Below, one piece after another: positions 1 through 22,229 of a stretch of 24,111 nt of DNA; positions within the stretch are counted from its first letter, which is position 1, and every line of letters starts with the position of its first letter. The position numbers were made by a program, and so were the translations under genes. The notes beneath the pieces are model-generated. The model saw nothing but the letters and a program-made list of their open reading frames with translations, had not been told where the DNA came from and did no database searches. Origin of the DNA: Desulfobacterales bacterium (lineage in GTDB: Bacteria; Desulfobacterota; Desulfobacteria; Desulfobacterales; UBA5852); the NCBI GenBank assembly GCA_030066455.1, contig JASJBQ010000011.1:1-24111 (forward strand). The letters run 5' to 3'.

Positions 1-2273
1 TCGTCCAGCAGCAGCAGGTCGATCACCGTGTCGCGGGCGATGTAGGAGCGGTAGCGGCGGCGGTAGGTGATGATATTCTCGGTGGTGAGCAGGACCGATT
101 CCATCATCATGCTCTCCACCACAGGCTCCTGATGTTTCTCCAGGCTGCGCCGGATGAAATCGCTGAGAATCAGGGCCCGTTCGATGCGACGACCGATATC
201 CAGAAAAGTCCAGCCCAGTTCCCGGGACATGCTTTCCTGGCACAATCCAGCAAAGGCCTGCAGCGAGGTCACCAGTCGATCCAGGGCCGGTTGCATCGTC
301 CGCAGCGCCGGGGACATGCGCTGCATGTTCAGGCGGTGCATCTCGAGATCGTTGACGATGCGCCATGAATCGGATGACCAGCGTTCACGAACCGCCTGGG
401 CCGCGCTGAACATGAAGTCGAGGCTGGCGGCCAGGCTGCCTGCATTGCCGTCGTCCGTAATGATCTCGAAGATGGTTTTTTGCAGATCGTCGAAACTGAT
501 CGGCGAGGGTGCCGCTTCGAGGGCCGCCGGCAGGGAAGCCATTTTGCAGACGATGGCCACCAGGGTGACACTGGATTCGAGATCGCCTTCATCTTCTGTG
601 CGCTCGCTGTCCTCTACCTGCCGCAATGCGGTGCGCAGGGTGCGGGCCAGCATTTCCGCGCGTTCGGCATAGCGGCCGACCCAGAACAGGTTCTCGGCGG
701 TGCGACTGGGCAGGACCGCCTGGCGCTGCAGGATGCGGCCTTGCGATTCGGACTGCAGCCACAGGCTGGTGTGTTTCTGGGGCTGAGAGGCCACCACCCA
801 GATGTCCTTCAGAATGCCGCCGGTCCGGTTGACCACCCAGTGGGTGTCCGGGTTGCCGCCGCTGCGGGCGATGCCGCCGGGCATCAGCGTGTATTCTCCC
901 GAGGCCTGGGCCAGCGCAAACAGGCGCGCCAGGGTGGGTCGGGGCTGGAAGGTGTTATCCACCAGGGCCGGGGCCGTGGCCAGCGTCTGCGGGGTCTGCC
1001 CCACGTAGCAATGCGGACAGGCCGCGATGCGCCCACGCCATTCCCGGCGTTCGTCTTTAGTAAGCCGGGAGCCGATGACGCCCTTTTCACCGGCAAGCTT
1101 CGAAATTGGTTTGATGATCAGGTTCTGCAGGTTTTCGAGAACATAGCGTCGGTCCCCCTCGCGGCCGCACCACCAGGTGGGCACCGAAGGGATAAGCAGC
1201 TCCTGGTTGATAAAATAGCGTGCCACCGCCGGCAGAAACGCCATCAGGCCCGGGTTTTCCAGGACCCCCGTTCCCAGCGGATTGGCGACGGTCACCTGGT
1301 TGCGGCGGGCCGCTTCCAGGAGGCCGGCCAGGCCGTTGGGGCCCGTGGGGTCGAGTTCCAGGGGGTCGCAACCGCGATCGTCGGTCATCCGCAGGATCAC
1401 GTCCACCGCCTCGAGCCCGTAAAGGGTTTTGAGCCACACCCGACCGTCGCGCATGGTCAGATCGTCGCCCTGGACCACCGGATAGTTCAGATAGGCGCCC
1501 AGGTAGCTCTGTTCGAAATAGGCGGGATGCTGGCGGTCCGCAGCATAAAGAATGATACGGGGCTGCTCGCGGGTGCGGGGGGCGTAACCGCGTAATTCGT
1601 CGCGCAGGAGGCGGAAGAAGGCCGATAGCCGCTGAATTTTGCAGGTGCGGAAGAAATCGGGCATGACCTTGGCCAGGGCCGTACGGTTTTCCAGGGTATG
1701 CCCCATGCCGAAAGGGCCCTGGGTGCGGTCGGCCAGCACCATATAGCTGCCGTCGCCGGTGCGGCCCAGGTCGGCCGAATAAAACAGCAGCTGATTGGCG
1801 GTCGGCAGGCGGAGGTCGTGGCAGGGGCGCAGGAAACCCGGATGGCCGTATATCAGTTCGGCCGGCAGGACACCGTCCGTGATCAGACGCCGGGGGCCGT
1901 ATAGATCCTTTAAAACGAGATCCAGCAGGTGCGCCCGCTGCTTGAGTCCGGTGCCGATGGTTTCCCAGTCGTCGCGGCCGATGATGAGCGGCAGGATGTC
2001 CAGCTGCCAGTTGCGGTGGATGCCCTGGGGGTCGCCGTGGATGTTGTAGGCCACCCCGTTTTCCCGGAACATGCGGGTGACCTCCTGGTGGCAGCGCTCC
2101 AACTGGTCGCATCCCAGGCGGTCGATGGTCTGGATCAGCGGCTGCCAGGCCCGGCGGACGGTCTGGGTCGCGCTCCAGAGTTCGTCATAGGTTGACGGCG
2201 GCGGGGTGTAGCCGTAGCAGCGTTCGGTGCCGCTGTTGATCGCTGTCGGTCCGGTCGAAGAGACGTTCGTCAT
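1..2273 (-). CDS. Fused circularly permuted ATP-grasp / alpha-E protein (DUF404-DUF407-DUF403), partial at C-terminus
   Basis: I translated this frame by hand. It is open from an ATG at 2273 to the left window edge (757 codons), so the C-terminus is missing. Residues about 30-500 resemble the circularly permuted ATP-grasp family (COG2308); the landmark ADRTQGPFGMGH is at 181-192. From about 521 (LPSRTAENLFWVGRYAERAE) an alpha-E helical domain (DUF403, COG2307) begins. ATP-grasp enzymes of this type are predicted from comparative genomics to be peptide or amide ligases; the substrate is unknown. The ATG overlaps the TGA of the upstream transglutaminase gene (ATGA, 2270-2273), so the two are translationally coupled. 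An AAGG lies just upstream of the start. The separate ATP-grasp paralogue at 6104 has EDN where this protein has ADR, so the two probably differ in chemistry. Family assignment is firm; function is inferred. Confidence 0.9.
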   Translation of the reverse strand, partial: MTNVSSTGPTAINSGTERCYGYTPPPSTYDELWSATQTVRRAWQPLIQTIDRLGCDQLERCHQEVTRMFRENGVAYNIHGDPQGIHRNWQLDILPLIIGRDDWETIGTGLKQRAHLLDLVLKDLYGPRRLITDGVLPAELIYGHPGFLRPCHDLRLPTANQLLFYSADLGRTGDGSYMVLADRTQGPFGMGHTLENRTALAKVMPDFFRTCKIQRLSAFFRLLRDELRGYAPRTREQPRIILYAADRQHPAYFEQSYLGAYLNYPVVQGDDLTMRDGRVWLKTLYGLEAVDVILRMTDDRGCDPLELDPTGPNGLAGLLEAARRNQVTVANPLGTGVLENPGLMAFLPAVARYFINQELLIPSVPTWWCGREGDRRYVLENLQNLIIKPISKLAGEKGVIGSRLTKDERREWRGRIAACPHCYVGQTPQTLATAPALVDNTFQPRPTLARLFALAQASGEYTLMPGGIARSGGNPDTHWVVNRTGGILKDIWVVASQPQKHTSLWLQSESQGRILQRQAVLPSRTAENLFWVGRYAERAEMLARTLRTALRQVEDSERTEDEGDLESSVTLVAIVCKMASLPAALEAAPSPISFDDLQKTIFEIITDDGNAGSLAASLDFMFSAAQAVRERWSSDSWRIVNDLEMHRLNMQRMSPALRTMQPALDRLVTSLQAFAGLCQESMSRELGWTFLDIGRRIERALILSDFIRRSLEKHQEPVVESMMMESVLLTTENIITYRRRYRSYIARDTVIDLLLLD

Positions 2274-5200
2274 GGCGCCTTTTTAAATCTTTTGGGGGTA
2301 AAGCGCAAATCCAGGGTGTAGGGGTATTCCGGATTGGCTTCCAGGGCCGGGGTCGACATGGGACCGGGGGGGTGGCCCTGGGGCTCGAACCGCCCCTGGG
2401 AAAAAGGGGGCGGCGGTGGCGGCGCGGTGGATCCCGGGGTGTGGCCGAAACCCCAGAAGCGGGCCGTGCGGCGGGCCTCGGCCTCGAAGGCGTTGACCGG
2501 AAAAACCTCGTAGTGGCGCCCGCCGGGATGGGACACGTGATAGGTGCAGCCTCCCACGCTGCGGCCGGTCCAGGTGTCGATCAGGTCGAAGACCAGAGGC
2601 GAGTGGACCCCGATGGTGGGGTGCAGGGCCGACGGCGGCTGCCAGGCGCGGTAGCGCACGCCGGCCACGTATTCACCCTGGGTGCCGGTGGCGCGCAGGG
2701 GGATCCGCCGTCCGTTGCAGGCCAGCGCGTAGCGACCGTCGGTCAGCCCGAGGCAGCGGATCTGCAGACGCTCCAGGGAAGAATCCACGAAGCGGCTGGT
2801 GCCGACCGACGAAAGCTCCTCGCCCAGGACGTGCCAGGGTTCGATGGCCATACGCAGCTCGATCGCGATGTCCTTGATCTGTACGGTGCCGTAATGCGGG
2901 AAGCGGAACGCGAAGAAAGGGGCCAGCCATTCGACCGCAAACGGAAAGCCGGCAGCCTGGATCATGGCCGCCACCTCGCCCAGGTCGGCCTCCACGTAGT
3001 GGGGCAGCATCCAGCGGTCGTGCAGTTCCGTGCCCCAGCGCACCAGGGGCTGCCGGTAGGGCTGATTCCAGAAGATGGCGATCAGGGTCCGCAGCAGAAG
3101 CATCTGGACGATGCTCATGCGGGCGTGCGGCGGCATGTCGAAGGCCCTGAACTCCACCAGTCCCTGGCGTCCGGCCAGGCTGTCCGGGGAGTAGAGCTTG
3201 TCGATGCAGAACTCGGCCCGGTGGGTGTTGCCGGTGATGTCCACGAGCAGATGCCGCAGCAGGCGGTCCACCAGCCAGTAAGGCGCCTGCGCTTCGGCGG
3301 GTGGTATCTGGTCGAAGGCGATCTCCAGCTCGTAAAGCTGCTCGTCGCGGCCTTCGTCCACCCGCGGCGCCTGGCTGGTGGGTCCGATGAACGTGCCGGC
3401 GAAGAGATAGGACAGGCCCGGGTGGTGCTGCCAGAAGGTGATCAGGCTGCGCAGCAGGTCGGGGCGCCGCAGCATCGGGCTGTCCGCCGGCGTCACCCCG
3501 CCCAGGGTCACGTGGTTGCCGCCGCCGGTGCCGGTGTGGCGGCCGTCGAGCATGAACTTTTCGGTGCCCAGGCGGGCCAGGCGGGCCTCTTCGTAGAGCG
3601 TGACCGTGTTGGTGACCAGTTCGCGCCAGGAGGCGGCCGGGTGGATGTTGACCTCGATCACGCCGGGATCGGGCGTCACCCTGAAGTGGTGCAACCGCGG
3701 GTCGGCCGGCGGCGGGTAGCCCTCGAGAATGACCGGGTGGCCCAGTTCGGCGGCCGTGTCTTCGACCCGGGTGACGAGCTCGAGGTAGTGCTCCAGATGG
3801 CTGGCCGGGGGCATGAAAACATGGAGATGCCCGTCGCGGGGCTCCACGCACAGGGCGGTGTGGGGAATTTCCCGTGGCGGCTTCGGGGTTGCGCGTACGT
3901 TCGCGGAAGTCGGCCGCGGGGCTTGCGACGGTTCGTCGACCGGGTCGGCGGCCAACATCGCCTGGCCGTATTCCCCAAGGGGCGGTAACGCCTCCAGAGG
4001 GGATGGTTCGGGCCAGGGCTCGCGCTCGTCCTTCGCCACCCAGGGAAGCGACTCCAGCGGCAGGCGCAGCCCCATGGGCGAGGTGCCGGGGGTCAGGTAC
4101 ATGCGGGGGGTGCGGAACGTCCAGCGGGCTCCGGTCCAGCCGTCGATGCCGAAATCCCACTTCAGGGGCAGGGCATAACCCGCCGGCGCCCCCAGGTCGC
4201 CCCGCAACCGCTCGGCCAGGCGCTGCCGCTCCTGCGTGTCCTTGAGGTCGGCCTCGAGAGGGTCCACGTTGACGGGCAGGCGGCTTTCGGCCCACAGGTG
4301 GTAAAGGGGGTCCTCGTAGCCCGGCGTCACCCAGGACGGGTCCAGCCCCAGCCGCCGGGACAGGACCTGGATGAAATTCAGGGCCAGATCGAGATCGGCA
4401 CCCCGAGGGGTGTTGTTAGCGGCCAGAAGCGAAGGATTCCGCCAGATGGGCCGCCCGTCACGGCGCCAGTAACTGGCCAGCGCCCAGCGCGGCAGTTCTT
4501 CGCCCGGATACCATTTGCCCTGGCTGGCGTGGCGCAGGCCGCCCGGGGCAAACACGGCATGCAGGCGCTGCCACAGGTTTTCCGCCAGGGCCCGCTTGTG
4601 CGCCCCCAGCGCGGTGGTGTTCCACTGGGCGGATTCCATGTCGTCGATGGAGACGAAGGTGGGCTCGCCGCCCATGGACAGGCGCACGTCCCCGGCCACC
4701 AGGGCGGCTTCGACCTGCTCGCCCAGGGCATCGATGGCCTGCCACTGGTCTTGGGTATAGGGCTTGGTCACCCGCGGTTCTTCGGCCACGCGCGCGACGT
4801 GGTTGGTGTAGCTGAAAGTCGTCTCGCACTTATCGGTGGCGCCGGTGACCGGTGCGGCACTGACCGGATCCGGTGTGCAGGCCAGCGGAATATGGCCCTC
4901 GCCGGCAAACAGGCCTGAGGTGGGATCCAGGCCCAGCCAGCCGGCGCCCGGTATATAGACCTCGGCCCAGGCGTGCAGGTCGGTGAAGTCGGCCTCGGGG
5001 CCGGAGGGGCCGTCCAGGGATTTTTCATCGGCCACCAGCTGCACCAGGTAGCCGGAGACAAATCGGGCGGCCAATCCCAGGTGCCGCAGGATCTGGACCA
5101 GGAGCCAGGCCGAGTCACGGCAGGAGCCGCTGGCTTTCGTCAGGGTTTCCTCACAGGTCTGGATTCCCGGCTCGAGGCGGACGGTGTAGGCGATCGCCTC

Positions 5201-5659
5201 CCAGAGCTTCCGGTTCAGCCCCACCAGGAAATCGTTCATGCGTTCACGGGAGCGCGCGATGCCGCGCATCCAAGCCTTGAGGCCGGGGCCGTTTTCCTCC
5301 ACCTGCAGGTAGGGCCAGAGCTCCTTTTTGAGCTGTGCGGGATAGTCGAAGGGAAAATGCTGGGCATAGGACTCATGAAAAAAGTCGAACGGGTTGATGA
5401 CGGTCATCCGGGCCACCAGGTCGACGTCGATCAGCATGCGATCCGTCTTCTCATTGAAGACCACCCGGGCCAGGTAGTTGCCGAAAGGGTCCTGCTGCCA
5501 GTTGATGAAGTGGTCGCCCGGCGTGATCTTGAGACTGTAGGCCTCGATCGGCGTACGGCAGTGCGGGGCCGGCCGCAGTCGGAAGACGTGCGGGCTCAGA
5601 GAAACGCGGCGATCATAACGGTATTCGGTCTTGTGGCAGATAGCAACATGAATGGTCAT
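2270..5659 (-). CDS. Transglutaminase-like / DUF2126 putative amidoligase protein
   Basis: A 1129-residue protein. Residues 1-85 look like the bacterial transglutaminase N-terminal beta domain, starting MTIHVAICHKTEYRYDR. Residues about 150-260 are the papain-like transglutaminase core, with catalytic triad candidates C180 (in ASGSCRDSAW), H229 (in DLHAWAEV) and D245 (in LGLDPTSG). From about 310 to the end is the DUF2126 region, described in family databases as a putative amidoligase, with hallmark segments MGGEPTFVSIDD and HTGTGGGNHVTLGG. The length and domain order are the usual ones for this fusion. The C-terminal tail has a proline run. It is the first gene of the leftward operon and overlaps the ATP-grasp/alpha-E gene by 4 bases. 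The likely role is making or cleaving an amide or isopeptide bond on an unknown peptide. The ribosome site is weak (GAAAGAAAA). No signal peptide is seen, so it is probably cytoplasmic. Confidence 0.93.
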   Translation of the reverse strand: MTIHVAICHKTEYRYDRRVSLSPHVFRLRPAPHCRTPIEAYSLKITPGDHFINWQQDPFGNYLARVVFNEKTDRMLIDVDLVARMTVINPFDFFHESYAQHFPFDYPAQLKKELWPYLQVEENGPGLKAWMRGIARSRERMNDFLVGLNRKLWEAIAYTVRLEPGIQTCEETLTKASGSCRDSAWLLVQILRHLGLAARFVSGYLVQLVADEKSLDGPSGPEADFTDLHAWAEVYIPGAGWLGLDPTSGLFAGEGHIPLACTPDPVSAAPVTGATDKCETTFSYTNHVARVAEEPRVTKPYTQDQWQAIDALGEQVEAALVAGDVRLSMGGEPTFVSIDDMESAQWNTTALGAHKRALAENLWQRLHAVFAPGGLRHASQGKWYPGEELPRWALASYWRRDGRPIWRNPSLLAANNTPRGADLDLALNFIQVLSRRLGLDPSWVTPGYEDPLYHLWAESRLPVNVDPLEADLKDTQERQRLAERLRGDLGAPAGYALPLKWDFGIDGWTGARWTFRTPRMYLTPGTSPMGLRLPLESLPWVAKDEREPWPEPSPLEALPPLGEYGQAMLAADPVDEPSQAPRPTSANVRATPKPPREIPHTALCVEPRDGHLHVFMPPASHLEHYLELVTRVEDTAAELGHPVILEGYPPPADPRLHHFRVTPDPGVIEVNIHPAASWRELVTNTVTLYEEARLARLGTEKFMLDGRHTGTGGGNHVTLGGVTPADSPMLRRPDLLRSLITFWQHHPGLSYLFAGTFIGPTSQAPRVDEGRDEQLYELEIAFDQIPPAEAQAPYWLVDRLLRHLLVDITGNTHRAEFCIDKLYSPDSLAGRQGLVEFRAFDMPPHARMSIVQMLLLRTLIAIFWNQPYRQPLVRWGTELHDRWMLPHYVEADLGEVAAMIQAAGFPFAVEWLAPFFAFRFPHYGTVQIKDIAIELRMAIEPWHVLGEELSSVGTSRFVDSSLERLQIRCLGLTDGRYALACNGRRIPLRATGTQGEYVAGVRYRAWQPPSALHPTIGVHSPLVFDLIDTWTGRSVGGCTYHVSHPGGRHYEVFPVNAFEAEARRTARFWGFGHTPGSTAPPPPPPFSQGRFEPQGHPPGPMSTPALEANPEYPYTLDLRFTPKRFKKAP

Positions 5660-5759
5660 GATTTTCTTTCGAATGCATCGTCGGCTGACCGGCGATGACT
5701 TCTTTAGCGTACGGGACGATTTCCTTTTTTAGGCCAGGGGTTGCAGACCCCCCTGTCCA

Positions 5760-5776
5760 TGCAAATTATTGGCCAG
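5760..5776 (-). promoter_or_regulatory. Candidate sigma-54 (-24/-12) promoter for the leftward operon
   Basis: Read on the - strand the site is CTGGCCAATAATTTGCA. It has the CTGGC block and TTGCA block of the sigma-54 consensus, with GG and GC exactly 12 bases apart, but it lacks the consensus ACG after TGGC. The predicted transcription start is near 5749, giving a leader of about 90 bases before the ATG at 5659. Inferred from the motif only. Confidence 0.5.
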
Positions 5777-5903
5777 CTTGGGCGGGCGATATCCATTCGG
5801 ATGGCCGCGACATCGTGGCGGTGCTTACGGGCCGCTGGCGTCGCTTGGGGCACCCGAAGGCAGGTAAAGCCCAGTCCACGCTAAGGTTTGATTTGCATTA
5901 TTG

Positions 5904-5946
5904 CAAAATATTTTTAAATAAATTACGGATTTGTAAAAATATTTTG
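5904..5946. repeat. Perfect 13-bp inverted repeat, candidate activator site
   Basis: The left arm CAAAATATTTTTA (5904-5916) and right arm TAAAAATATTTTG (5934-5946) are exact reverse complements across a 17-base spacer. Arm centres are 30 bases apart, about three helical turns, which suits a protein binding both arms on one face of the DNA. The repeat lies between the two divergent -24/-12 elements, roughly 95 bases from the predicted rightward start and 175 from the leftward start. It is too AT-rich, and too far from any stop codon, to look like an ordinary terminator. Confidence 0.6.
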
Positions 5947-5992
5947 GCGTGGCGCGGCCATTTCCTGCCCGCGCGTGAGCCCCGATACGGTG

Positions 5993-6009
5993 TTGGCGCC
6001 AAGTTTGCC
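5993..6009 (+). promoter_or_regulatory. Candidate sigma-54 (-24/-12) promoter for the rightward operon
   Basis: The site TTGGCGCCAAGTTTGCC matches the sigma-54 consensus in its TTGGC and TTGC blocks, with GG and GC exactly 12 bases apart. It departs from consensus at the A and G of the ACG triplet. The predicted start is near 6020, about 84 bases before the ATG at 6104. Its mirror-image partner is at 5760-5776. Confidence 0.5.
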
Positions 6010-6103
6010 GCCCGATCGTATTGGTATTTATTTTGCTTATCAAGATCGAATCGCGGTGTTATCCACCGTTTGCGGATTCAAAAAACAGCCCCGGGACAAC
6101 CCC

Positions 6104-7597
6104 ATGGATTTCAGCCACTACGACATCGGACCTTTTTTCGACGAAATGTTCGTCGCCCCCGATCAGGTGCGGTCCGGCACCGATCTGCTGCGGCGCAAGA
6201 TCGAGTCCCTGCCCCCCGGGGAGCTGAACCGCCGACAGGCGGCGGCCGAGAAAGCCCTCTACGACACGGGGATTACCTTCAACGTCTACGGCCACGACGA
6301 AGCCACCGAAAAGATCTGGCCTTTCGACCTGGTGCCCCGCATCGTCCCCATCGATGAGTGGCAGCACATCGAGGAAGGCCTGAAGCAGCGCATCCAGGCC
6401 CTCAACCTCTTTATCGACGATATCTACCACGACCAGAAAGTCGTCAAAGACGGCGTGGTTCCGGAAGAACTGATCGCCACGGCCGAGGGCTTTCTTAAAC
6501 CCTGCGTGGGACTGGATCCGCCGCAGGGCGTCTGGTGCCACATCAGTGGGTCGGATCTGGTACGCGACGGGGACGGCCGGCTTTTCGTGCTCGAAGACAA
6601 CCTGCGCTGCCCCTCGGGCGTCTCTTACGTGATCGCCAACCGTCGGCTGATGAAACGGACGTTTCCGGAAGTCTTTGCGGCATCCAGCGTGCGCGCCGTG
6701 GAGTCGTATCCCGCCCGGCTGCTGGACATGCTGCATGCCATTGCCCCCAGCAAGGGCCGACCCCCCCTGATCACGCTTCTCACGCCGGGGGCTTTCAATT
6801 CCGCTTATTTCGAGCATTCCTTTCTGGCCCACGAGACCGGCATCGAACTGGTGGAGGGACGCGACCTCGTGGTGCACGACGGCTACGTGTGCATGCGCAC
6901 GACCAAAGGACTGCAACAAATAGACGTTATCTACCGCCGCTTGAACGACGACTTCCTCGACCCTAAAGCCTTTCGCCCGGACTCGCTGTTGGGCGTACCC
7001 GGCCTGATGGACGTCTACCGCGCCGGCCGGGTGGCGGTGGCCAATGCGCCGGGAACCGGGGTGGCGGACGACAAGGTGATCTACGCCTACGTGGAAGATA
7101 TTATCAAGTACTACCTGGACCAGGATGCCCTGATCCCGAACGTGCCCACTTATCTGTGCTGGCGCCCGAAGGATCTGAGCTATGTGCTCGAGCACATCTC
7201 TGAACTGGTGGTCAAGGCGGCCAATGAATCCGGCGGTTACGGCATGCTGGTGGGGCCGGCGGCCACCCGGGCGGAATGTGAGGCCTTTGCGGCCAAAATC
7301 AAGCAAACCCCGCGCAATTTCATCGCCCAGCCGACGCTCAGCCTTTCCCGGGCGCCGGTGATCGTCGACGATCGGTTCGAAGGGCGCCACGTGGACCTGC
7401 GGCCCTTCATTCTCTACGGCGAGGATATCTTCGTGCTGCCGGGCGGGTTGACCCGGGTGGCGCTGCGCGAAGGTTCGCTGGTGGTCAACTCCTCGCAAGG
7501 CGGCGGCAGCAAGGATACCTGGGTCGTGGATCCTGACAAGCAAACGGGAGCCCCATTGGCCTTGGGGATAGATGACGATGTTGAGCCGAGTTGCTGA
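6104..7597 (+). CDS. Circularly permuted ATP-grasp protein (DUF404/DUF407, COG2308)
   Basis: A 497-residue protein from the ATG at 6104 (MDFSHYDIGPFFDEMF). The frame stays open further upstream to 5975, but the family normally starts near this point, and an upstream start would lie before the predicted transcription start. Family landmarks are NLFIDDIYHDQ (101-111), KDGVVPEEL, the nucleotide/metal segment LEDNLRCPSGVSYV (163-176), ESGGYGMLVGP and HVDLRPFILYG near the C-terminus. The full EDN motif suggests an active ligase. The predicted role is ATP-dependent formation of an amide bond on an unknown peptide or amino-acid substrate. It overlaps the following alpha-E gene by 20 bases and forms a two-gene operon with it. 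The ribosome site is poor (GGGA). It is paralogous to the N-terminal part of the fused protein at 1-2273. Confidence 0.92.
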   Translation: MDFSHYDIGPFFDEMFVAPDQVRSGTDLLRRKIESLPPGELNRRQAAAEKALYDTGITFNVYGHDEATEKIWPFDLVPRIVPIDEWQHIEEGLKQRIQALNLFIDDIYHDQKVVKDGVVPEELIATAEGFLKPCVGLDPPQGVWCHISGSDLVRDGDGRLFVLEDNLRCPSGVSYVIANRRLMKRTFPEVFAASSVRAVESYPARLLDMLHAIAPSKGRPPLITLLTPGAFNSAYFEHSFLAHETGIELVEGRDLVVHDGYVCMRTTKGLQQIDVIYRRLNDDFLDPKAFRPDSLLGVPGLMDVYRAGRVAVANAPGTGVADDKVIYAYVEDIIKYYLDQDALIPNVPTYLCWRPKDLSYVLEHISELVVKAANESGGYGMLVGPAATRAECEAFAAKIKQTPRNFIAQPTLSLSRAPVIVDDRFEGRHVDLRPFILYGEDIFVLPGGLTRVALREGSLVVNSSQGGGSKDTWVVDPDKQTGAPLALGIDDDVEPSC

Positions 7598-8555
7598 CGC
7601 CCTCTACTGGATGACGCGCTACCTGGAGCGGGCCGAGAACATTTCACGCTTCGTGGAAGTCAACTGGCACCTGACGCTGGACCAGCCTCAGAACGGGTGC
7701 CAGGAATGGGCCGCGCTGGTGCGCATCACCGGTGACACCGATTTGTTCTTGGAACGCTACGACGGGTTCGACCCCCGGAGCGTCGTGTCGTTTCTACTCT
7801 TCGACCGGGCCTATCCCCACTCGGTGCTGTCATGCCTGCGGGCCGCCCGGGAGAACGCCCGGACGGTGCGTGAAATCATCTCCAACGATCTCTGGGAACA
7901 GGTCAACGATTTCTACCACCTCGTGGTGGACGCCAGCCAGCATCCGAACGCGCTGCACATCAATCCCCAGGAATTCTGCAAGCAGATCAGCCTGCGCGGT
8001 ATGATGCTGGGCGGCATCGGCAACGAAACCATGATCCACGGCGAGGGCTGGCACTTCAGCCGGGTGGGGCGGTTTCTTGAACGGGCCGACAAAACCTCGC
8101 GCATTCTGGACGTGAAGTATTTCATCTTGTTACCGAACGTGAGCTACGTGGGCACGGCCTACGACGATGTGCAGTGGGGGGCCCTGCTGCGGGCCACCAG
8201 CGGCCTGAATGCCTATCGCCAGCGCCACGGGCGCATCTATCCCGCCAATGTGGCCGATTTTCTCATATTCGACCGCGAATTTCCGCGCTCGATCCTCTTC
8301 GCCCTGAATGCCGCCCTGGCTTCGCTCAGCAGCATCAGCGGCACATCGCCGGGAACCTTCAGCAACAAGGCCGAGCAGCGCCTCGGACGGCTGTGCGCCG
8401 AATTGGCCTACACGGACATTGCCACGGTCTTCAGTACCGGGCTGCATGAGTTTACCGACAACCTGCAGCTCGAGATCAACCATGTCAACGACGCCATCGG
8501 GACGGTATTTTTCGGCTACGCTCCCGACCTCGCGACGAGCGATCAGGAACAATAA
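7578..8555 (+). CDS. Stand-alone alpha-E domain protein (DUF403, COG2307)
   Basis: A 325-residue, largely helical protein beginning MLSRVADALYWMTRYLERAEN, the standard alpha-E opening. I prefer the ATG at 7578 to the one at 7572 because GGGGAT (7564-7569) sits 8 bases before it. Later landmarks are MMLGGIGNETMIHGEGWHFSR and FLERADKTSRILDVKYF. Alpha-E proteins nearly always travel with circularly permuted ATP-grasp proteins, fused or adjacent, and the reaction they perform is not established. This copy starts inside the 3' end of the ATP-grasp gene, so translation is probably coupled. A terminator-like hairpin follows at 8607. No transglutaminase or Anbu-type peptidase gene follows on this side, although such genes are often seen in these clusters. 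Confidence 0.92.
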   Translation: MLSRVADALYWMTRYLERAENISRFVEVNWHLTLDQPQNGCQEWAALVRITGDTDLFLERYDGFDPRSVVSFLLFDRAYPHSVLSCLRAARENARTVREIISNDLWEQVNDFYHLVVDASQHPNALHINPQEFCKQISLRGMMLGGIGNETMIHGEGWHFSRVGRFLERADKTSRILDVKYFILLPNVSYVGTAYDDVQWGALLRATSGLNAYRQRHGRIYPANVADFLIFDREFPRSILFALNAALASLSSISGTSPGTFSNKAEQRLGRLCAELAYTDIATVFSTGLHEFTDNLQLEINHVNDAIGTVFFGYAPDLATSDQEQ

Positions 8556-8843: not shown

Positions 8844-10325
8844 ATGGCGCCAAGCACCACACCAACCGCCCCGGACGCCGGGTGGACATTCGATAACAGT
8901 TATGCACGCTTGCCGGAGGCATTTTACGTTCGCCTGAATCCGATACCGGTGCGAATGCCGACGCTCGTCGTTTTCAACACCGCACTGGCACATTCTTTGG
9001 GGCTGAACTCCGATGCCCTGAAGGGCGACGATGGGGCTGCCGTTTTTGCGGGCAACCGTCTCCCCGAGGGCGCCGAACCGCTCGCCCAGGCCTATGCAGG
9101 GCATCAGTTCGGCTATTTCACCATGCTGGGCGATGGGCGGGCCATCTTGATGGGTGAGCAGCTGACGCCGCAGGGTGAACGCTTTGACATTCAGTACAAA
9201 GGATCGGGCAAGACGCCGTTTTCGCGGAATGGAGACGGGCGGGCGGCCCTGGGGCCGATGCTGCGGGAGTATATCATCAGCGAAGCCCTCTACGCCTTGG
9301 GCATACCGACGACCCGCAGCCTTGCCGTGGTGACGACCGGTGAGCAGGTGTTTCGTGAGACCCCCCTGCAGGGGGCGATTCTGACCCGCACGGCGGCCAG
9401 CCACATCCGCGTGGGCACGTTCGAATATGCGGCCGGGAGGGGCCAACCCGATGATATCCGGGCATTGGCCGACTACACCATCCACCGTCATTTTCCCGAG
9501 CTGGTTGCGGCCGACAACCCCTACATGGCCTTTTTGAGGGCCGTCATGGAGCGGCAGGCGTCCCTTGTGGCCCGCTGGCTGCTGGTGGGTTTCATCCACG
9601 GGGTGATGAACACGGACAACATGGCCCTTGGCGGTGAAACCATCGACTACGGCCCCTGCGCCTTCATGGACGCCTACGATCCGAACACCGTTTTCAGCTC
9701 CATCGATCACCACGGCCGCTACGCCTACGAACGCCAGCCGCAGATCGCCCAGTGGAATCTGGCCCGGTTGGCCGAGACGCTGCTGCCGCTGATCCACGAT
9801 GAGCCGCAAGAGGCCCTGGCCATAGCCACCGAGGCGGTGACTGGTTTTACGGACACATTCCGCCGTCACTGGCTGGCCGGCATGCGGGCCAAACTCGGGT
9901 TGTCGAACCCGGAAGAGGACGACGGCACGCTGGTGGCGGACCTCCTCGAGTGCATGCACCGGCACGGGGCGGATTTCACCAACACCTTCCGCGACCTGGC
10001 AACGGGTCCCGTGCCGGAGGCCTCCTTTTTCCAGGCCCCGGATTTTAAACACTGGCACGAGCGCTGGCAGGCCCGCCTCAAACGGCAACCCGGTGGCTGG
10101 GAGACCTCCAGACAGCTCATGAACGCCAACAACCCAGCGGTGATCCCCCGCAATCATCGGGTGGAAGAGGCTATCGCGGCGGCCGTGGAGCGGGCCGACT
10201 ATGCGGTCATGGAAAAACTGCTGGATTTTCTGTCCCAACCGTTTCAGGCCCCACCGGTGGAGGCCGGTTACCATCTGCCCGCACCCCCTTCGGCACCGCC
10301 CTACCGCACTTTCTGCGGCACGTGA
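8844..10325 (+). CDS. selO: SelO/YdiU family pseudokinase, protein adenylyltransferase
   Basis: A 493-residue protein, the usual size for bacterial SelO. The family transfers AMP from ATP to Ser/Thr/Tyr of target proteins and is linked to redox stress. Visible signatures are [17 protein letters not shown] (84-100), the nucleotide-binding [11 protein letters not shown] (118-128), HGVMNTDN (252-259) and the metal site DYGPCAFMD (268-276). C272 and the C-terminal C491 (ending FCGT) match the two cysteines that form a regulatory disulfide in E. coli SelO; there is no selenocysteine codon. GGAGG at 8834-8838 lies 5 bases before the ATG. It stands alone between terminators, and the arsenic genes downstream begin after a separate gap. 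Confidence 0.95.
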
Positions 10326-10542: not shown

Positions 10543-10977
10543 ATGGACAACCGGCTGAAAGTCTTGTTTTTATGCACGGGAAATTCGTGCCGCAGCCAGA
10601 TGGCTGAAGGGTGGACCAACCATCTCAAGCGTGACGTCATCGAGTGCCGATCCGCAGGGGTCGAAACCCATGGCCTCAATCCGCTGGCGGTCAGGGTCAT
10701 GGCCGAAGCCGGTGTGGACATATCGCACCACAAGTCGCAGCTTGTCGACGAATTCCTCGGTGCGCCCTGGGATGTTGTCGTTACCGTTTGCGGCCATGCC
10801 CATGAGAGCTGTCCGTTCTTTCCCGGCAAAGCCAACGTCGTGCATGTCGGGTTTGACGACCCGCCCGCATTGGCCCAATCCGAAAGCACCGAAGAGGCGG
10901 CCCTGGTTCACTACCGCCGCGTGCGCGACGAGATTCGCGCGTTTGTCGCATCCTTGCCTGAATCTCTTCGTAAATAA
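10543..10977 (+). CDS. arsC: Thioredoxin-coupled arsenate reductase (low-molecular-weight phosphatase fold)
   Basis: A 144-residue cytoplasmic enzyme that reduces arsenate to arsenite. The phosphate-binding loop CTGNSCRS (11-18) carries nucleophile C11 and R17. C83 and C90 in VCGHAHESCP fit the cysteine relay of the S. aureus-type, thioredoxin-recycled ArsC (C10, C82, C89 there). D105 in FDDPP is the likely general acid. A plain tyrosine phosphatase would lack the C83/C90 pair. GGGGA at 10535-10539 precedes the ATG. The acr3 efflux gene starts a few bases after its stop, so the two form an operon in which reduction feeds export. No arsR lies on either side within the window. Confidence 0.95.
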   Translation: MDNRLKVLFLCTGNSCRSQMAEGWTNHLKRDVIECRSAGVETHGLNPLAVRVMAEAGVDISHHKSQLVDEFLGAPWDVVVTVCGHAHESCPFFPGKANVVHVGFDDPPALAQSESTEEAALVHYRRVRDEIRAFVASLPESLRK

Positions 10978-11001
10978 GTCGCCATGGGAGCAAAACGCAT
11001 C

Positions 11002-12183
11002 ATGCAAGATACTGCGGCCATTCACAACGAACGCAAAATGACCAGTCTTTTCGAGCGCTACCTCTCCGTCTGGGTGCTGTTGTGTATCGCCGGCGGCATC
11101 CTGTTGGGTAAAGTGGCCCCCGGCGTGGCCCAGGCCCTGGACGGCATGGCCATCTTCGTAAAAGGCGCGCCGGTTGTCTCCATCCCCATCGCCGTTTGTC
11201 TGTTTTTCATGATGTATCCCATCATGGTCAAGATCGACTTCGGCGAGGTCATCAAGGCGGGGAAAAGCGGCAAGCCGGTTTTTTTGACCCTGTTCATCAA
11301 CTGGGCGATCAAACCATTTACCATGTACGCCATTGCCCTGTTCTTTCTGGGCACGCTCTTCTACGGCTTTATCGGCCCGGATGCGGTGGACCAAATTAAA
11401 ATGCCGTTTGGCCTGGATCTTCCGGTTGGCGTTACCCACGGATCAGGCACCGTCGTCCTCGTCGACGGCATCAAGATGCTTGAGATTCCCCTGTGGCGAA
11501 GCTACCTGGCCGGATGCATCCTGCTGGGGATCGCACCCTGTACGGCCATGGTGCTGGTCTGGGGCTTTCTGTCGCGGGGCAACGACGGTCTGACTCTGGT
11601 CATGGTGGCCGTCAACTCGCTGACCATGTTGGTGCTCTATGGCGTTCTCGGCGGTTTTTTACTGGGCGTCGGGCGGTTGCCGGTGCCATGGCAGGCGCTG
11701 CTTCTCTCCATCGGCATCTATGTGGCCCTGCCCCTCATCACCGGATATCTTTCGCGCCGCTGGATTATTGCGGTGAAAGGTGAGGCGTGGTTCACGGAGC
11801 GTTTCCTGCACGTGCTCACGCCCATCACCATCGTTGCCCTGCTGATTACGCTGGTGCTGCTCTTCTCTTTCAAAGGCGAAGTTATTCTGGCCAATCCGCT
11901 GACGATCCTGTGGATTGCCGTGCCCCTCTTCATTCAAACCGTGCTCATTTTCTGCATTGGTTATGTGATGGCCAAGTTCCTGAAATTGCGATATGAGGAT
12001 GCGGCACCGGCAGCCATGATCGGGGCGTCGAACCACTTCGAAGTCGCCATTGCCACAGCGACCATGCTCTTCGGCCTGAGTTCAGGCGCCGCCCTGGCAA
12101 CCGTGGTGGGGGTTCTGATCGAAGTCCCGGTCATGCTCATGCTGGTTAGAATTTGCCTGAACACCCGGTCCTGGTTCAGTTAG
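11002..12183 (+). CDS. acr3: ACR3-family arsenite efflux permease
   Basis: A 393-residue polytopic membrane protein with about ten hydrophobic segments. It should expel arsenite using the membrane potential. Hallmarks are [17 protein letters not shown] at the first helix, the conserved cysteine C180 in [19 protein letters not shown], and E374 in [11 protein letters not shown]. The start is uncertain: ATGs lie at 10984, 11002 and 11038, all in frame. I chose 11002 because GGGAG (10986-10990) lies upstream, although its 11-base spacing is long; 10984 would be 6 bases after the arsC stop. It is longer than a typical ACR3 of about 350 residues because of an extra loop around residues 122-162 between two membrane segments. 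A hairpin without a T-run follows at 12342. Confidence 0.94.
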
Positions 12184-12462: not shown

Positions 12463-12615
12463 TGGCCGTACCATTAAGGCGATTGGTTCATTCCCACCTT
12501 GCAAAACAAACAACGAAAAATAAATTATTTATAATTAAAACCAATATTTTATGAATTATTTAACTGCTTGCAGGCGTTACACCGATAAAATTAAGGTAGG
12601 ACCAATGGGGTGAAA

Positions 12616-13464
12616 ATGCATCCACCCGACCTTGCGAATATATTCAGACCGGCCCAAGTCGGCCGAGCCAGTGAAGATGTCGCCCTTCAGATTGAAGCGG
12701 CCATTCTCGGTGGACAGCTCAAAAGGGGTGAACGCCTGCCCAGCGAGCGGAGTCTGCAGGGCGTATTCAAGAGCAGCCGGGGCGTCATCCGGGAGGCATT
12801 GCGTGCCCTCAAGCAGAAGGGCCTCATTGAAATCAAGAAAGGCGCACATGGCGGCGCGTCCGTCAAAGATCTCGAATTGATCAATGCCAGTGAACCGTTG
12901 GCCCTTTTCCTCAAACAGCAGCAGGTGCCATCCCCGTATCTAATCGAGTTTCGTGAGTCCATCGACCGTACCATCACGCAATTGGCCACGTCCCGGGGAA
13001 GTCGTTCGGACAAGCAGGCCCTGGTCGCTAAAACGGGCGCTTTCGAGGAACTTCTCCGGCAGCCGAATCCCGACATGAAAAAAGTGGCTGAAATTGATCG
13101 CGAAATGAATATCGCCCTGGCCCAAATGACAGGCAATCCGATTTTTGAAATGATCATGCGGATGACGCAGTTTGGTTTCAGCTCTCAGGACCAGCTGCTT
13201 TATGATGATCCTGATTTTCGTTTCAAGACGGCGGCCAATTGGGGCGAGACCGCGCGACGGATCGCGTCCGGCGATATTCTGCGAGCGCTTTCCAGCATCA
13301 GTTACCACTATGTTTTATTGGAACGCTGCCTGGCAAAAAGGGAAAAAGAAAAAACGGCTGCAGCGGGTTTTCAGATGCGCGACGCCACGACGGCCGCACC
13401 CGGCCCCACAGGGCCCGATTGGCCTTTTCCGTCGACTCCGCCCTCAACTGACAGCGGACCTTGA
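12616..13464 (+). CDS. GntR-family transcriptional regulator, FadR/FCD subfamily
   Basis: A 282-residue protein. Residues about 20-83 form the winged helix, with LPSERSLQGVFKSSRGVIREALRAL as the helix-turn-helix and GLIEIKKGAHGGASV as the wing. Residues about 95-240 are the all-helical FCD ligand domain. Where metal-binding FCD proteins have D-x-x-x-H, this one has DREMN, so the usual metal site looks altered. The last 30 or so residues are a proline-rich tail not typical of the family. It is the first gene of the operon, 26 bases before livG, and so probably controls the transport and oxidation genes and itself in response to the substrate. A GTG at 12610 (with AGGA upstream) is an alternative start; I chose the ATG at 12616. 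Confidence 0.9.
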   Translation: MHPPDLANIFRPAQVGRASEDVALQIEAAILGGQLKRGERLPSERSLQGVFKSSRGVIREALRALKQKGLIEIKKGAHGGASVKDLELINASEPLALFLKQQQVPSPYLIEFRESIDRTITQLATSRGSRSDKQALVAKTGAFEELLRQPNPDMKKVAEIDREMNIALAQMTGNPIFEMIMRMTQFGFSSQDQLLYDDPDFRFKTAANWGETARRIASGDILRALSSISYHYVLLERCLAKREKEKTAAAGFQMRDATTAAPGPTGPDWPFPSTPPSTDSGP

Positions 13465-13490
13465 AATGGAGATAGAAGCGGGCACCCTGA

Positions 13491-14207
13491 ATGTTGACCT
13501 TAATTAATGTGACTAAAAAATTCGGCGAACTGGTGGCCGTCAACGATCTGAGCTTCACGGTCGAGGCGGGCCAGATATTCGGTATCGCCGGTCCCAACGG
13601 GGCCGGCAAGTCGACCGTCTACAATCTGATTACCGGCTTTCATTCCTACGAAGGCCGCATTGAATTTGACGGGCAAAACCTGTCGGGCATGCCACCCTAC
13701 AAAATCGCCAAGACCGGCATCGCCCGTACCTTTCAGATACCCCAGATTTTCCCCAGCCTTACGGTCGAAGAGAGCATTGGCGTCGGCAGCCGCTTCGGCA
13801 ACCGGGACGGATGGGACCCGTCGCATGTGGCGGAGGTCATCCGCTTTGTCGGGCTCTCCGGGGAGAAATCTTTGTCTACCGGTCAACTCAACCTGCTGGG
13901 GAAGAAAAAGCTGATGATTGGTGCCGCACTGGCGACCAAACCAAAACTGCTCATGCTGGACGAACCCATGGCCGGGTCCAACGCCGGCGAAATCAAGGCG
14001 CTGATGCAGCTCATCCGAAGCATACGTGCTGAGTTCGGACTGACCATCATCATCATCGAGCACTTCATGAAAGTGCTGACCGAGCTGACGGAAAAGCTTC
14101 TCATCATTGAGTCCGGGGCCATGCTCTGCTGCGATGCGCCTGAGATCGCCACCGGCAATCCGCGTGTCATCGAGTCCTATATCGGAGATGCCTATGCTGC
14201 AGGTTAG
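13491..14207 (+). CDS. livG: LIV-type ABC transporter ATP-binding protein (LivG-like)
   Basis: A 238-residue ATPase of the branched-chain amino acid / amide importer class. Walker A is GPNGAGKST (34-42), the Q-loop is Q82 in ARTFQIPQIFP, Walker B is LLMLDEP (153-159) and the switch histidine is H191. The ABC signature is degenerate: NLLGKKKL (134-141) in place of an LSxGQ-type motif, so this subunit's half of the ATP site may be altered. It overlaps livF by 14 bases. It pairs with LivF, LivH, LivM and the binding protein encoded next. LivG-like proteins serve many solutes, so the name does not prove amino-acid transport. The ribosome site is weak, consistent with read-through from the regulator gene 26 bases upstream. 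Confidence 0.9.
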   Translation: MLTLINVTKKFGELVAVNDLSFTVEAGQIFGIAGPNGAGKSTVYNLITGFHSYEGRIEFDGQNLSGMPPYKIAKTGIARTFQIPQIFPSLTVEESIGVGSRFGNRDGWDPSHVAEVIRFVGLSGEKSLSTGQLNLLGKKKLMIGAALATKPKLLMLDEPMAGSNAGEIKALMQLIRSIRAEFGLTIIIIEHFMKVLTELTEKLLIIESGAMLCCDAPEIATGNPRVIESYIGDAYAAG

Positions 14208-14898
14208 CAATCTCAGCGCCTGGTATGGTGAAGCCCGGGTGTTGGAGCAGGTAAGCGTTTCCGTGGACCAAGGCCAGGTGGCGGTGATGCTGGGGCCTAA
14301 CGGCCACGGAAAAAGCACCCTGCTGAAAGCCATCTGCGGGCTGGCGGAACGGATCAGCGGCGAGATCGCCTACCAGGACCGGCCCATCAACGGATTGACG
14401 CCGGATAAGCTGGTCAACATGGGCGTGGTCTACATTGCCGAGAATCGGGAATTGTTTCCGTATATGACGGTTCTGGAGAACCTGAAACTCGGGGCCTATT
14501 CCAAGGCCGCCCGTCCCCACGAGAAGAGAAACATGGAGCGGGTCTTCAGTCTTTTCCCGAGACTGGAGGAGAGACGCACCCAGCTGGCCTCCACCATGAG
14601 CGGGGGGGAGGCCAAAATGCTCGCGGTGGCCAGGGGACTCATGTCCAATGCGGACTTTTTGTGCATCGACGAACCGTCCCTGGGCCTTCAGCCCAGCCTG
14701 CGGATGGAGCTGTTTGCCACCATCAAGGAGATCAACAAGCAGGGCAAAACCATTTTGCTCGTGGAGCAGAACATTCCCCATATCGCGGAGCTGGCGGACA
14801 AGATCTACGTCATGGAGGAAGGGCGTGTGTCTTTCGAAGGCAACAGCGATGAGGCTTTGCAAAATGAGCATTTGAAGGAAATCTTTCTCGGGATGTAA
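14194..14898 (+). CDS. livF: LIV-type ABC transporter ATP-binding protein (LivF-like)
   Basis: A 234-residue ATPase. I start it at the ATG at 14194 (MLQVSNLSAWYGEARVL), with GGAG at 14184-14187 six bases upstream; the frame is open further upstream but that part lies inside livG and is not family-like. Walker A is GPNGHGKST (34-42), the signature is a good MSGGE (135-139), Walker B is FLCIDEP (155-161), and the switch position is Q192 in VEQN, as usual in LivF. AENRELFP replaces the commoner PEGRRLFP. It is coupled to livG by overlap and is the second nucleotide-binding subunit of the same importer. Confidence 0.93.
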   Translation: MLQVSNLSAWYGEARVLEQVSVSVDQGQVAVMLGPNGHGKSTLLKAICGLAERISGEIAYQDRPINGLTPDKLVNMGVVYIAENRELFPYMTVLENLKLGAYSKAARPHEKRNMERVFSLFPRLEERRTQLASTMSGGEAKMLAVARGLMSNADFLCIDEPSLGLQPSLRMELFATIKEINKQGKTILLVEQNIPHIAELADKIYVMEEGRVSFEGNSDEALQNEHLKEIFLGM

Positions 14899-14917
14899 GC
14901 ACTCAGGACCCAAACGA

Positions 14918-15820
14918 ATGCTCAGCGAAGACACCATATTACTGCTCTATGAAATAACGGACGTGATCATCGCCGGCTTGTCCACAGGCTCCGTGTACGC
15001 CCTGATGGCCGTGGGCATGACCCTGGTCTACGGGGTGAGCAAGGCTTTTAACTTCGCCTATGGTGATTTCTTCAACCTGGGCGGTTATTGCGCCTGGATT
15101 CTGATCTTCGGCATCGGTTTGGAATTCGGGGGCTATCCAGTGATTCTGCTCATCGTCATGCCTGTTTTGTTCGCCGTGGGCTACGGGCTGGAAAAACTTC
15201 TGGTAGCCCCATTGCGTGATCGCGATGACTGGGAAAACAAGGTCATGATGCTGACCCTGGGTCTGGCGCTCTTCCTGACCAGCCTGTACATGGTGGTCTT
15301 CGGCGTGCGCATGAAGTCCCTGCCCCCCATTCTGGAGGGAACCCTGGAAGTGGGTCAGCTGGTGTTCGCCTACCAGGACATCATGATATTTACCTTGTCC
15401 ATCAGCGGCATCTTGGCTTTCGGCTGGATGCTCAACAACACCCGCATCGGCCTGGCCGTGCGTGCCGTGGCGCAGAATCCGGTGGGTGCCACCATCGTGG
15501 GCATTCCCAAGGAGCGGATTTTTGCCACGACGTTTGCCATTTCAACCGTCATGGTGGGGTTCGGCGGCATTCTCCTGAGCCAGAAATGGTTCATCAACCC
15601 CAACTCGGGGGGCACCATCATGGTCAAGGCCTGGGTGGTGACCGCCCTGGGGGGGATGGGCTCCATTCGCGGAGGGCTCTATGCGGCTTTCATCATCGGT
15701 ATGCTCGAGGCGTTCGTGGGTTGGTTGTTTGGGATGAGTTACGGCATCATTGCGCTCTTTGTGCTCTTGCTGGCGACCCTCGTGCTGCGGCCCCAGGGCC
15801 TGATGGGAAAGGGTGAGTAA
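14918..15820 (+). CDS. livH: LIV-type ABC transporter permease (LivH-like)
   Basis: A 300-residue inner-membrane permease with about eight hydrophobic segments. Family landmarks are GLSTGSVYALMAVGMTLVYG near the N-terminus, FNFAYGDFFNLGGY, the coupling-loop segment RAVAQNPVGATIVGIP that contacts the ATPase, and VVTALGGMGSIRGG towards the end. It starts 19 bases after livF and ends 3 bases before livM, so it is in the same transcript. With LivM it forms the heterodimeric membrane channel. Confidence 0.94.
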   Translation: MLSEDTILLLYEITDVIIAGLSTGSVYALMAVGMTLVYGVSKAFNFAYGDFFNLGGYCAWILIFGIGLEFGGYPVILLIVMPVLFAVGYGLEKLLVAPLRDRDDWENKVMMLTLGLALFLTSLYMVVFGVRMKSLPPILEGTLEVGQLVFAYQDIMIFTLSISGILAFGWMLNNTRIGLAVRAVAQNPVGATIVGIPKERIFATTFAISTVMVGFGGILLSQKWFINPNSGGTIMVKAWVVTALGGMGSIRGGLYAAFIIGMLEAFVGWLFGMSYGIIALFVLLLATLVLRPQGLMGKGE

Positions 15821-15823
15821 ACG

Positions 15824-16786: not shown

Positions 16787-16832
16787 TTTGAACAGGAACA
16801 ATACGCAACCCAAACGAAAGGAACCGTGCAGG

Positions 16833-18224: not shown

Positions 18225-18653
18225 ATGCCTGGGAATTACTTTATCAAGACCCATTTCGATCTCTGCACGGGGTGTGAAATCTGCCGCCTGGTCTGCAGCG
18301 ACCGTCTGCTGGGGGGCTGCAATCCCCACCGGGCGCTCCTGCGGGTCACCCATACGCATGAAAACCTCTACCATTTCCCGGAGGTCTGCAACCAGTGCAC
18401 CAACGCCTACTGCGCCCGGGTGTGTCCGGTGGATGCCATCGACCGCGATGCGGACACCGGGGCCATGGTGGTGGACCGCGATGCCTGCGTGGCCTGCGGG
18501 TTGTGCCAGCGATATTGCCCCACCGATATGATCGGCGTGGATCCGGAGCTGAAGAAGTCGGTCAAATGCGATCTCTGCGGCGGTCGCCCGCGATGCGTCA
18601 AAGCCTGTCCCACCGGCGCGCTTGAGTTTTTTTCCAGGGAGGACCGACGATGA
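18225..18653 (+). CDS. Four-cluster [4Fe-4S] ferredoxin-type electron-transfer subunit (AOR partner)
   Basis: A 142-residue protein with sixteen cysteines in four groups: C14/17/20/24, C55/58/63/67, C88/91/94/98 and C115/118/124/128, enough for four [4Fe-4S] clusters; C32 is extra. Layout and size resemble the small Fe-S subunits next to tungsten aldehyde oxidoreductases (the AorA type of Aromatoleum) and the BamC-like partners. No signal peptide, so it is cytoplasmic. Its TGA overlaps the ATG of the AOR gene (ATGA at 18650-18653), strong evidence for a 1:1 complex. The role is to carry electrons from the AOR to an acceptor not encoded here, such as free ferredoxin or a flavin subunit. The ribosome site is weak. 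Confidence 0.92.
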   Translation: MPGNYFIKTHFDLCTGCEICRLVCSDRLLGGCNPHRALLRVTHTHENLYHFPEVCNQCTNAYCARVCPVDAIDRDADTGAMVVDRDACVACGLCQRYCPTDMIGVDPELKKSVKCDLCGGRPRCVKACPTGALEFFSREDRR

Positions 18654-22181: not shown

Positions 22182-22229
22182 CCGGCGTATACGCTCGGGT
22201 CGCCAAGGCGCGTCGTATCGCCCCGGGCC

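Follow-up and report, generated by a model that had tools for sequence, protein, structure and literature searches.

Iyer et al. predicted in 2009 that gene systems combining an ATP-grasp ligase of the CP-ATP-grasp type with an alpha-E protein and a transglutaminase-like protein serve in peptide synthesis or tagging, as cited in PMC6376114 and PMC5666114, and such systems have since been studied by way of operons that encode Anbu. For the ATP-grasp protein of the Yersinia bercovieri Anbu operon, release of phosphate from ATP is reported in PMC6376114; both PMC6376114 and PMC5666114 mention that nitrogen limitation induces Anbu in Pseudomonas putida. The NtrC regulon of Burkholderia cenocepacia includes the cluster I35_5080-5083, encoding DUF404/407, DUF403, transglutaminase and large transglutaminase proteins, with log2 changes of -8.2, -9.4, -9.4 and -6.0 in an ntrC mutant under nitrogen limitation as given in PMC5491218, and an association of these domains with urea metabolism in marine metagenomes is described in PMC3597751. 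Here we analyze a locus of this kind in a 24,111-nucleotide stretch from a Desulfobacterales bacterium (positions 1 to 24,111 of contig JASJBQ010000011.1, assembly GCA_030066455.1; hereafter the window). The gene set is known but barely studied, with a presumed role in making small peptides or attaching them; in the window it is present in a rearranged form. An earlier sequence-only reading had proposed an undescribed system; the type of system is already described, by the 2009 prediction. Our best explanation, to which we give a probability of about 0.6, is that the locus encodes a conserved five-protein amide-ligation system, that its divergent layout belongs to one Desulfobacterales lineage and that its fused ATP-grasp/alpha-E copy is a pseudo-ligase.

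Two divergent gene pairs, with a fused ATP-grasp/alpha-E protein encoded leftward and the same domains encoded separately rightward, had been proposed from the letters of the window, and the Pfam domains and coordinates bear this arrangement out. On the reverse strand, the fused protein (3-2273) is seen over 757 residues with no stop before the window edge, thus its C-terminus is missing; CP_ATPgrasp_2 (428.5 bits, residues 95-470) is followed by Alpha-E (178.6 bits, residues 521-757). The other reverse-strand gene, at 2270-5659, encodes a protein, hereafter TG-DUF2126, with Bact_transglu_N, Transglut_core and DUF2126 domains in Pfam; the transglutaminase-like domain occupies residues ∼6-246 and DUF2126 (1315.7 bits) residues 276-1119. 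On the forward strand, the frame 5975-7597 matches CP_ATPgrasp_2 with 548.4 bits; since the alignment with relatives begins at ATG 6104, this start is more likely than GTG 5975, and the split ATP-grasp (6104-7597) would have 497 residues. It is followed by the split alpha-E gene at 7572-8555 (327 residues, Alpha-E 330.4 bits). The scores of the four proteins are far above chance. The genes overlap in an operon-like manner, by 4 bases in the leftward pair (2270-2273) and by 26 bases in the rightward pair (7572-7597), and the two pairs are separated by a divergent control region of 444 bases (5660-6103).

The evidence that carries the pseudo-ligase part of this explanation came from comparison of ATP-grasp open reading frames (ORFs) of the window and 150 loci from Desulfobacterota, Gammaproteobacteria, Alphaproteobacteria and Planctomycetota (fetched loci are designated L and survey genomes G). 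We aligned 189 ORFs; 6 of 195 were dropped as too short. The presence of alpha-E was called by a profile built from split alpha-E proteins only. In the window the split ATP-grasp carries VLEDNLRCPSG, with the E-x-N motif E164-D165-N166 encoded at 6593-6601 on the forward strand, versus VLADRTQGPFG in the fused protein, which has not retained the SGGYG loop of the split one. Across the alignment, both E164 and N166 were kept in 105/108 ORFs without a detected alpha-E and lost in 80/81 ORFs with it (Desulfobacterota 17/17, Gammaproteobacteria 20/21, Alphaproteobacteria 22/22, Planctomycetota 21/21). Three ORFs without a detected alpha-E lack the motif: two of fused size, in L099 and L100 (872 and 930 residues), and a 432-residue fragment in L120, so that among all 189 ORFs 106 keep E-x-N and 83 do not. 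The glycine loop shows the same division: G377, Y379 and G380 are present in 105, 105 and 104 of the 108 ORFs without alpha-E versus 6, 2 and 6 of the 81 ORFs with it. These losses speak against the earlier proposal of two ligases acting on one substrate.

A tree built with the 14 diagnostic columns masked separated motif-keeping from motif-less ORFs with support 1.0 and none of the 189 misplaced; the separating branch is 0.967 long, with the median internal branch at 0.089, and the fused ATP-grasp of the window falls into the motif-less clade. The sole alpha-E-bearing ORF that keeps E-x-N (L101, 6196-8877, genome G504) is placed inside the motif-keeping clade and is an independent second fusion, of the motif-keeping type. 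As this ORF is fused and yet retains the motif, motif loss tracks the paralogue rather than the act of fusion. In L101 both ATP-grasps are fused to alpha-E, the motif-less one at 2818-5430.

Simple decay of the fused ATP-grasp is argued against by residues that stay conserved in the alpha-E-bearing copies, namely R180 (81/81), R433 (81/81), D471 (80/81) and W473 (79/81); R154 and R278 are kept in 78/81 copies each and K470 in 73/81. The fused alpha-E domain (44 of 46 fused ORFs used) retains W13, R16, E19, R20, R26, E170 and R171 in 41-44 of 44 copies, and has largely lost W46 (0/44), R93 (2/44), N95 (1/44) and R177 (4/44); by these losses the fused protein has moved away from the active pair in its ATP-grasp and alpha-E domains alike. 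These patterns make it probable that the fused copy acts as a pseudo-ligase, with a helper role in place of a catalytic one. In the open-licence literature searched we met no claim of inactivity for the fused ATP-grasp; Iyer et al. 2009, which lies outside that literature, may contain one. A further observation concerns L120 (genome G126, C54), where a motif-less ATP-grasp gene is broken into overlapping pieces and no DUF2126 was found in the genome.

The other proteins retain enzyme-type sites. The split ATP-grasp, with E-x-N and the glycine loop intact and with homology to PDB entry 3n6x (550 bits, the only real match in a PDB profile search), is predicted to be an active carboxylate-amine ligase. 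Its partner alpha-E is all-helical in an AlphaFold2 model (pLDDT 88.6) and internally duplicated, as its halves align with an hhalign E-value of 1.8e-18; sequence searches found no solved relative of alpha-E, and the matches from fold comparison all fell short of the level that the tool itself sets for helical bundles. Residue conservation was assessed in 79 of 82 split alpha-E proteins, 57 of 58 small transglutaminases and 56 of 66 TG-DUF2126 proteins (those of at least 950 residues). In the latter, the transglutaminase residues C180, H229 and D245 are present in 56/56 relatives, as are E669, N671, H716, H813, E816, E836 and R838 of the DUF2126 part, with H673 (40/56) and R707 (50/56) more variable. 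DUF2126 is likely to be a second, GS-like ligase in which the conserved residues would be catalytic. In the small transglutaminases Cys is found in 57/57, His and Asp in 56/57, the remaining protein being gapped there.

The small transglutaminase is a gene of the relatives, and it was not seen in the sequence-only reading. The closest relative of the window in the genome scan is the Desulfobacterales metagenome-assembled genome MO_140.B12 (locus L001, genome G001), with a split ATP-grasp 93% identical to that of the window and a fused protein 98.4% identical over the 757 residues seen; the homologue of the latter has 863 residues in full. Its layout is divergent like that of the window, read from two contigs both ending inside TG-DUF2126, and by Pfam a small transglutaminase gene follows the fused gene (L062, 2403-3305). 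As the same gene follows in other relatives, we expect a fifth gene of this kind immediately beyond the left edge of the window. The gene set of the relatives thus consists of split ATP-grasp, alpha-E, TG-DUF2126, fused ATP-grasp/alpha-E and small transglutaminase.

Among 242 genomes of Desulfobacterales, the order of G001, CP-ATP-grasp was above the cut-off in 20 and DUF2126 was found in 17 of these 20, the other three being G056, G164 and G126. We fetched and annotated the DUF2126 regions of all 17. The co-directional order ATP-grasp, alpha-E, TG-DUF2126, fused gene, transglutaminase occurs in 9/17 genomes (one of them, G169, truncated at the ATP-grasp end by the contig border) and the divergent layout in 5/17 (G001, G151, G189, G220 and G146, the last with a contig that stops within TG-DUF2126 and without a detected fused gene). 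In the remaining three, G195 has a tail-to-tail layout, G081 carries the split pair on a separate contig, and in G179 the contig end leaves the order unreadable. One clade (support 0.999) unites the split ATP-grasps of the divergent genomes with that of G081; the matching clade in the tree of fused proteins also includes G081 and the co-directional G169 (support 0.994). Given these memberships, the divergent layout looks to be inherited within one lineage, with one likely gene exchange between layouts. In G169 (L067, C264) the fused gene at 4294-6894 is 87% identical to that of the window and the other genes of the operon resemble the co-directional type, a possible one-gene exchange or an assembly chimera.

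A survey of 274 gammaproteobacterial genomes found DUF2126 in 50 and CP-ATP-grasp in 79; one best DUF2126 place was taken per genome, the fused form was called by a frame of at least 800 residues with a score below 525 bits, and three rows of small ATP-grasp fragments (G279, G327) were left out. The split form is present in 50/50 genomes with DUF2126; the fused form was found in 22 genomes, of which 22/22 carry the split form and 20/22 carry DUF2126. DUF2126 and the split form lie within 8 kb of each other in 37 genomes, where 23 arrangements are co-directional, nine divergent and five convergent, and in the other 13 they are farther apart or on separate contigs. The gammaproteobacterium G397 (L100) has the layout of the window together with a small transglutaminase gene. 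All five genes are also present in Marinomonas sp. KMM3893 (L037), and Synechococcus elongatus encodes DUF2126, CP-ATP-grasp and alpha-E.

In Alphaproteobacteria, where DUF2126 was found in 29/190 genomes, 22 of 29 stretches hold DUF2126 with a fused gene, 17 of those 22 with no split ATP-grasp seen nearby; in an 18th, L200, the sole labelled split ATP-grasp is a 153-residue fragment overlapping the fused gene. At the level of genomes the split form is present in 27 of the 29, in the same stretch or elsewhere, with an edge fragment in G652, and it was not found in G624. Planctomycetota have DUF2126 in 28/199 genomes, and the full co-directional order of five genes was read in 9/25 fetched stretches. 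Stretches were fetched for all 22 gammaproteobacterial genomes that carry the fused form, for 14 of the 30 that have DUF2126 and no fused form, for 25 of the 28 Planctomycetota (a 26th being L018) and for 28 of the 29 Alphaproteobacteria (the 29th being L032); some genomes were reached by two routes, and near-duplicates are possible. Alpha-E adjoins the split ATP-grasp in all loci of the genome scan except L011 and the loci L031 and L036, cut by contig ends. Judged from the counts in the Gammaproteobacteria, Alphaproteobacteria and Planctomycetota, the dependence of the parts is nested, from the split pair to DUF2126 to the fused form, and their adjacency is frequent and not required. A second, shorter relative of DUF2126, in frames of ∼700-880 residues, was observed beside the longer one in G430, G289, G294, G400, G409, G907, G892, G865 and G758, a further layer of paralogy.

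By these counts the two halves of the locus in the window are one linked gene set, in line with the expectation that their pairing is no chance duplication (50/50 and 22/22 in Gammaproteobacteria, 17/20 in Desulfobacterales). The sequence-only reading had argued for the link from the control region shared by the two operons and had named independent occurrence of the operons in most relatives as a finding that would count against it. The first argument fails: since nine co-directional loci stand against five divergent ones confined to one clade, the divergent control region is a lineage-specific layout and not the basis of the link. We therefore rejected a shared divergent promoter as the functional link; in the Gammaproteobacteria, too, only 9/37 pairs are divergent, and the split pair of the Alphaproteobacteria is usually not near the other half. 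As for independent occurrence, DUF2126 and the fused form are not independent of the split form at the genome level; the split form, for its part, does occur alone.

Within the control region, a two-sequence alignment with L001 revealed two shared AT-rich blocks (about 5883-5945 and 6018-6058); matches to sigma-70-like sites are weak there, and a scan of the whole window for sigma-54 sites gave 5 matches against 4.97 expected. Going by the relatives of the cluster, the gene set is probably used under nitrogen limitation.

A mechanism consistent with these observations would proceed as follows. Partnered by the helical alpha-E, the split ATP-grasp would activate a carboxylate to an acyl-phosphate, which would be joined to an amine to yield a small peptide or a protein tag; DUF2126 would act as the second ligase, and the amide so formed would be hydrolysed or transferred by the transglutaminase-like domains. 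The fused protein may bind the substrate or the active pair and so scaffold or regulate the reaction. A stronger version, which we hold tentatively and at somewhat less than even confidence, is that the fused proteins are an ancient pseudo-ligase family, spread over no fewer than four large groups of bacteria, which an active split pair and DUF2126 require as activator or scaffold; together they would form an Anbu-independent machine of five proteins in which two ligase sites are live and one is dead.

Several points weigh against the proposed five-protein system with a pseudo-ligase. E164 and N166 are presumed metal ligands by the ATP-grasp signature. We considered supporting this assignment by homology to E. 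coli glutathionylspermidine synthetase, in which we take D318 and E330-x-N332 to have the corresponding roles, and by eye the spacing is similar (D318..E330-x-N332 versus D151..E164-x-N166); this support was rejected, as the hhalign profile comparison did not align the two (probability 0.2%). The split form is present without DUF2126 or the fused form in 27 of the 79 gammaproteobacterial genomes with an ATP-grasp; because split pairs often occur without either, DUF2126 and the fused form are, on this evidence, not needed for a core function. No sigma-54 box within two mismatches was found in the control region, where an indirect or non-consensus site is possible. Finally, a pull-down with Anbu as bait in Y. 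bercovieri gave no specific contacts, according to PMC6376114.

Other explanations of the locus have to be weighed against this one. The fused copy could be a second active ligase that uses another metal or nucleotide geometry to add a second residue to the same substrate, as might be suggested by its full size in four large groups and by the seven residues from R154 to W473 kept in 73-81 of 81 copies; however, E164, N166, D323, K324 and D431 each survive in 1/81 (for E164 and N166 in the copy from the motif-keeping clade) and with the glycine loop largely lost we consider it unlikely that both ATP-grasps are active. Tagging and turnover of the Anbu type, in which the ligases would tag proteins and the Ntn-hydrolase would degrade them or detach the tags, has been proposed in print (PMC6376114). 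It fits the gammaproteobacteria that have DUF2126 and lack the fused form, where Anbu was found in 29/30 genomes and inside 12 of the 14 loci fetched. Where the fused form is present, Anbu is rarer: it was found in 14/22 gammaproteobacterial genomes (Fisher p 0.003, ignoring relatedness) and, of 21 gammaproteobacterial stretches surrounding the fused gene, in only 2. No Anbu was found in the window, the part beyond the edge being outside the view, and an Anbu profile detected none genome-wide in G001 and none in the 20 Desulfobacterales genomes with CP-ATP-grasp, which are drafts; nor was peptidase activity of Anbu seen in the Y. bercovieri work, according to PMC6376114. An Anbu-type function is therefore doubtful for this locus and, given the absence from Desulfobacterales and the rarity beside the fused form, the version in the window probably works without Anbu.

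One could also think of the nitrogen economy of the cell, with the ligases storing nitrogen as an amide polymer and the transglutaminase-like domains freeing ammonia or amino acids from such polymers. We know of no such storage polymer, no search for one having been made, and no sigma-54 site was seen in the control region of the window. The nitrogen control in Burkholderia (PMC5491218) and of Anbu in P. putida (PMC6376114, PMC5666114), as well as the urea-domain association in marine metagenomes (PMC3597751), are in favor of a link to nitrogen; still, scavenging overlaps with the amide-ligation system and concerns its purpose rather than mechanism, and as an explanation of its own we regard it as improbable. 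Since ATP-grasp ligases act in graspetides (as described in PMC8939145), a cluster modifying a genetically encoded precursor peptide is conceivable; yet no precursor-like recurrent neighbour appeared among the clustered ORFs of at least 100 residues, the small frames that exist in the control region are broken by gaps in the alignment to L001, and the same gene set is found in several phyla, all of which makes a natural-product cluster highly improbable. We also rejected a reading of the locus as an anti-phage defence system, as PADLOC matched none of its families to the four window proteins.

The conserved amide-ligation system with its pseudo-ligase, then, belongs to a family that spans several phyla and keeps enzyme-type sites, and the phosphate release noted above for one ATP-grasp (PMC6376114) is its sole biochemistry in the literature searched. 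Sorting of probably live from probably dead ligase domains points assays to the split ATP-grasp, DUF2126 and the transglutaminases, with the fused protein as a partner to test, and the unit to study is the five genes and not the divergent promoter. That the fused paralogue has consistently lost E-x-N and the glycine loop in four large groups, and that the dependence of the parts is nested, may be new.

Farther to the right, the alpha-E gene is followed by genes for a SelO-like protein adenylyltransferase (8844-10325), a low-molecular-weight phosphatase-like protein (10543-10977) and an ACR3-type arsenite exporter (10984-12183). A functional link of these three to the system was considered and rejected, as among the annotated loci their seeds matched in the window only; they are probably unrelated neighbours. 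The region 12610-18059 contains a GntR-FCD regulator and a branched-chain amino acid/urea-type ABC transporter (two ATPases, two permeases and a binding protein), and the region 18225-23291 contains a 4Fe-4S protein, aldehyde ferredoxin oxidoreductase, a GMC oxidoreductase, whose listed frame overlaps that of the aldehyde ferredoxin oxidoreductase, and an opposing malate/lactate dehydrogenase.

Among known relatives, PDB entry 3n6x aligns with the split ATP-grasp over nearly the full length and carries the motif LEDNLRTPSG; its name, putative glutathionylspermidine synthase, is that given by the depositors. The B. cenocepacia cluster I35_5080-5083, as described in PMC5491218, similarly groups DUF404/407, DUF403, a transglutaminase and a large transglutaminase protein; it differs in that nitrogen control is shown there, with no sigma-54 site found in the control region of the window. 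The Anbu operons of Y. bercovieri and others, as presented in PMC6376114 and PMC5666114, have in common with the window the split ATP-grasp, alpha-E and a transglutaminase-like protein, but the window has TG-DUF2126 and the fused protein instead of Anbu. Compared with the class of Iyer et al., as it appears in the papers citing it, the locus stands apart by DUF2126, by a second ATP-grasp/alpha-E copy without E-x-N or an intact glycine loop and by its divergent layout, features possibly noted in 2009 already. It shares with that class the same domain families, the association of their genes and the prediction of peptide synthesis or modification: there is a CP-ATP-grasp with intact motifs (6104-7597), an alpha-E gene overlapping it by 26 bases with a second copy fused, and a transglutaminase-like protein with its triad kept.

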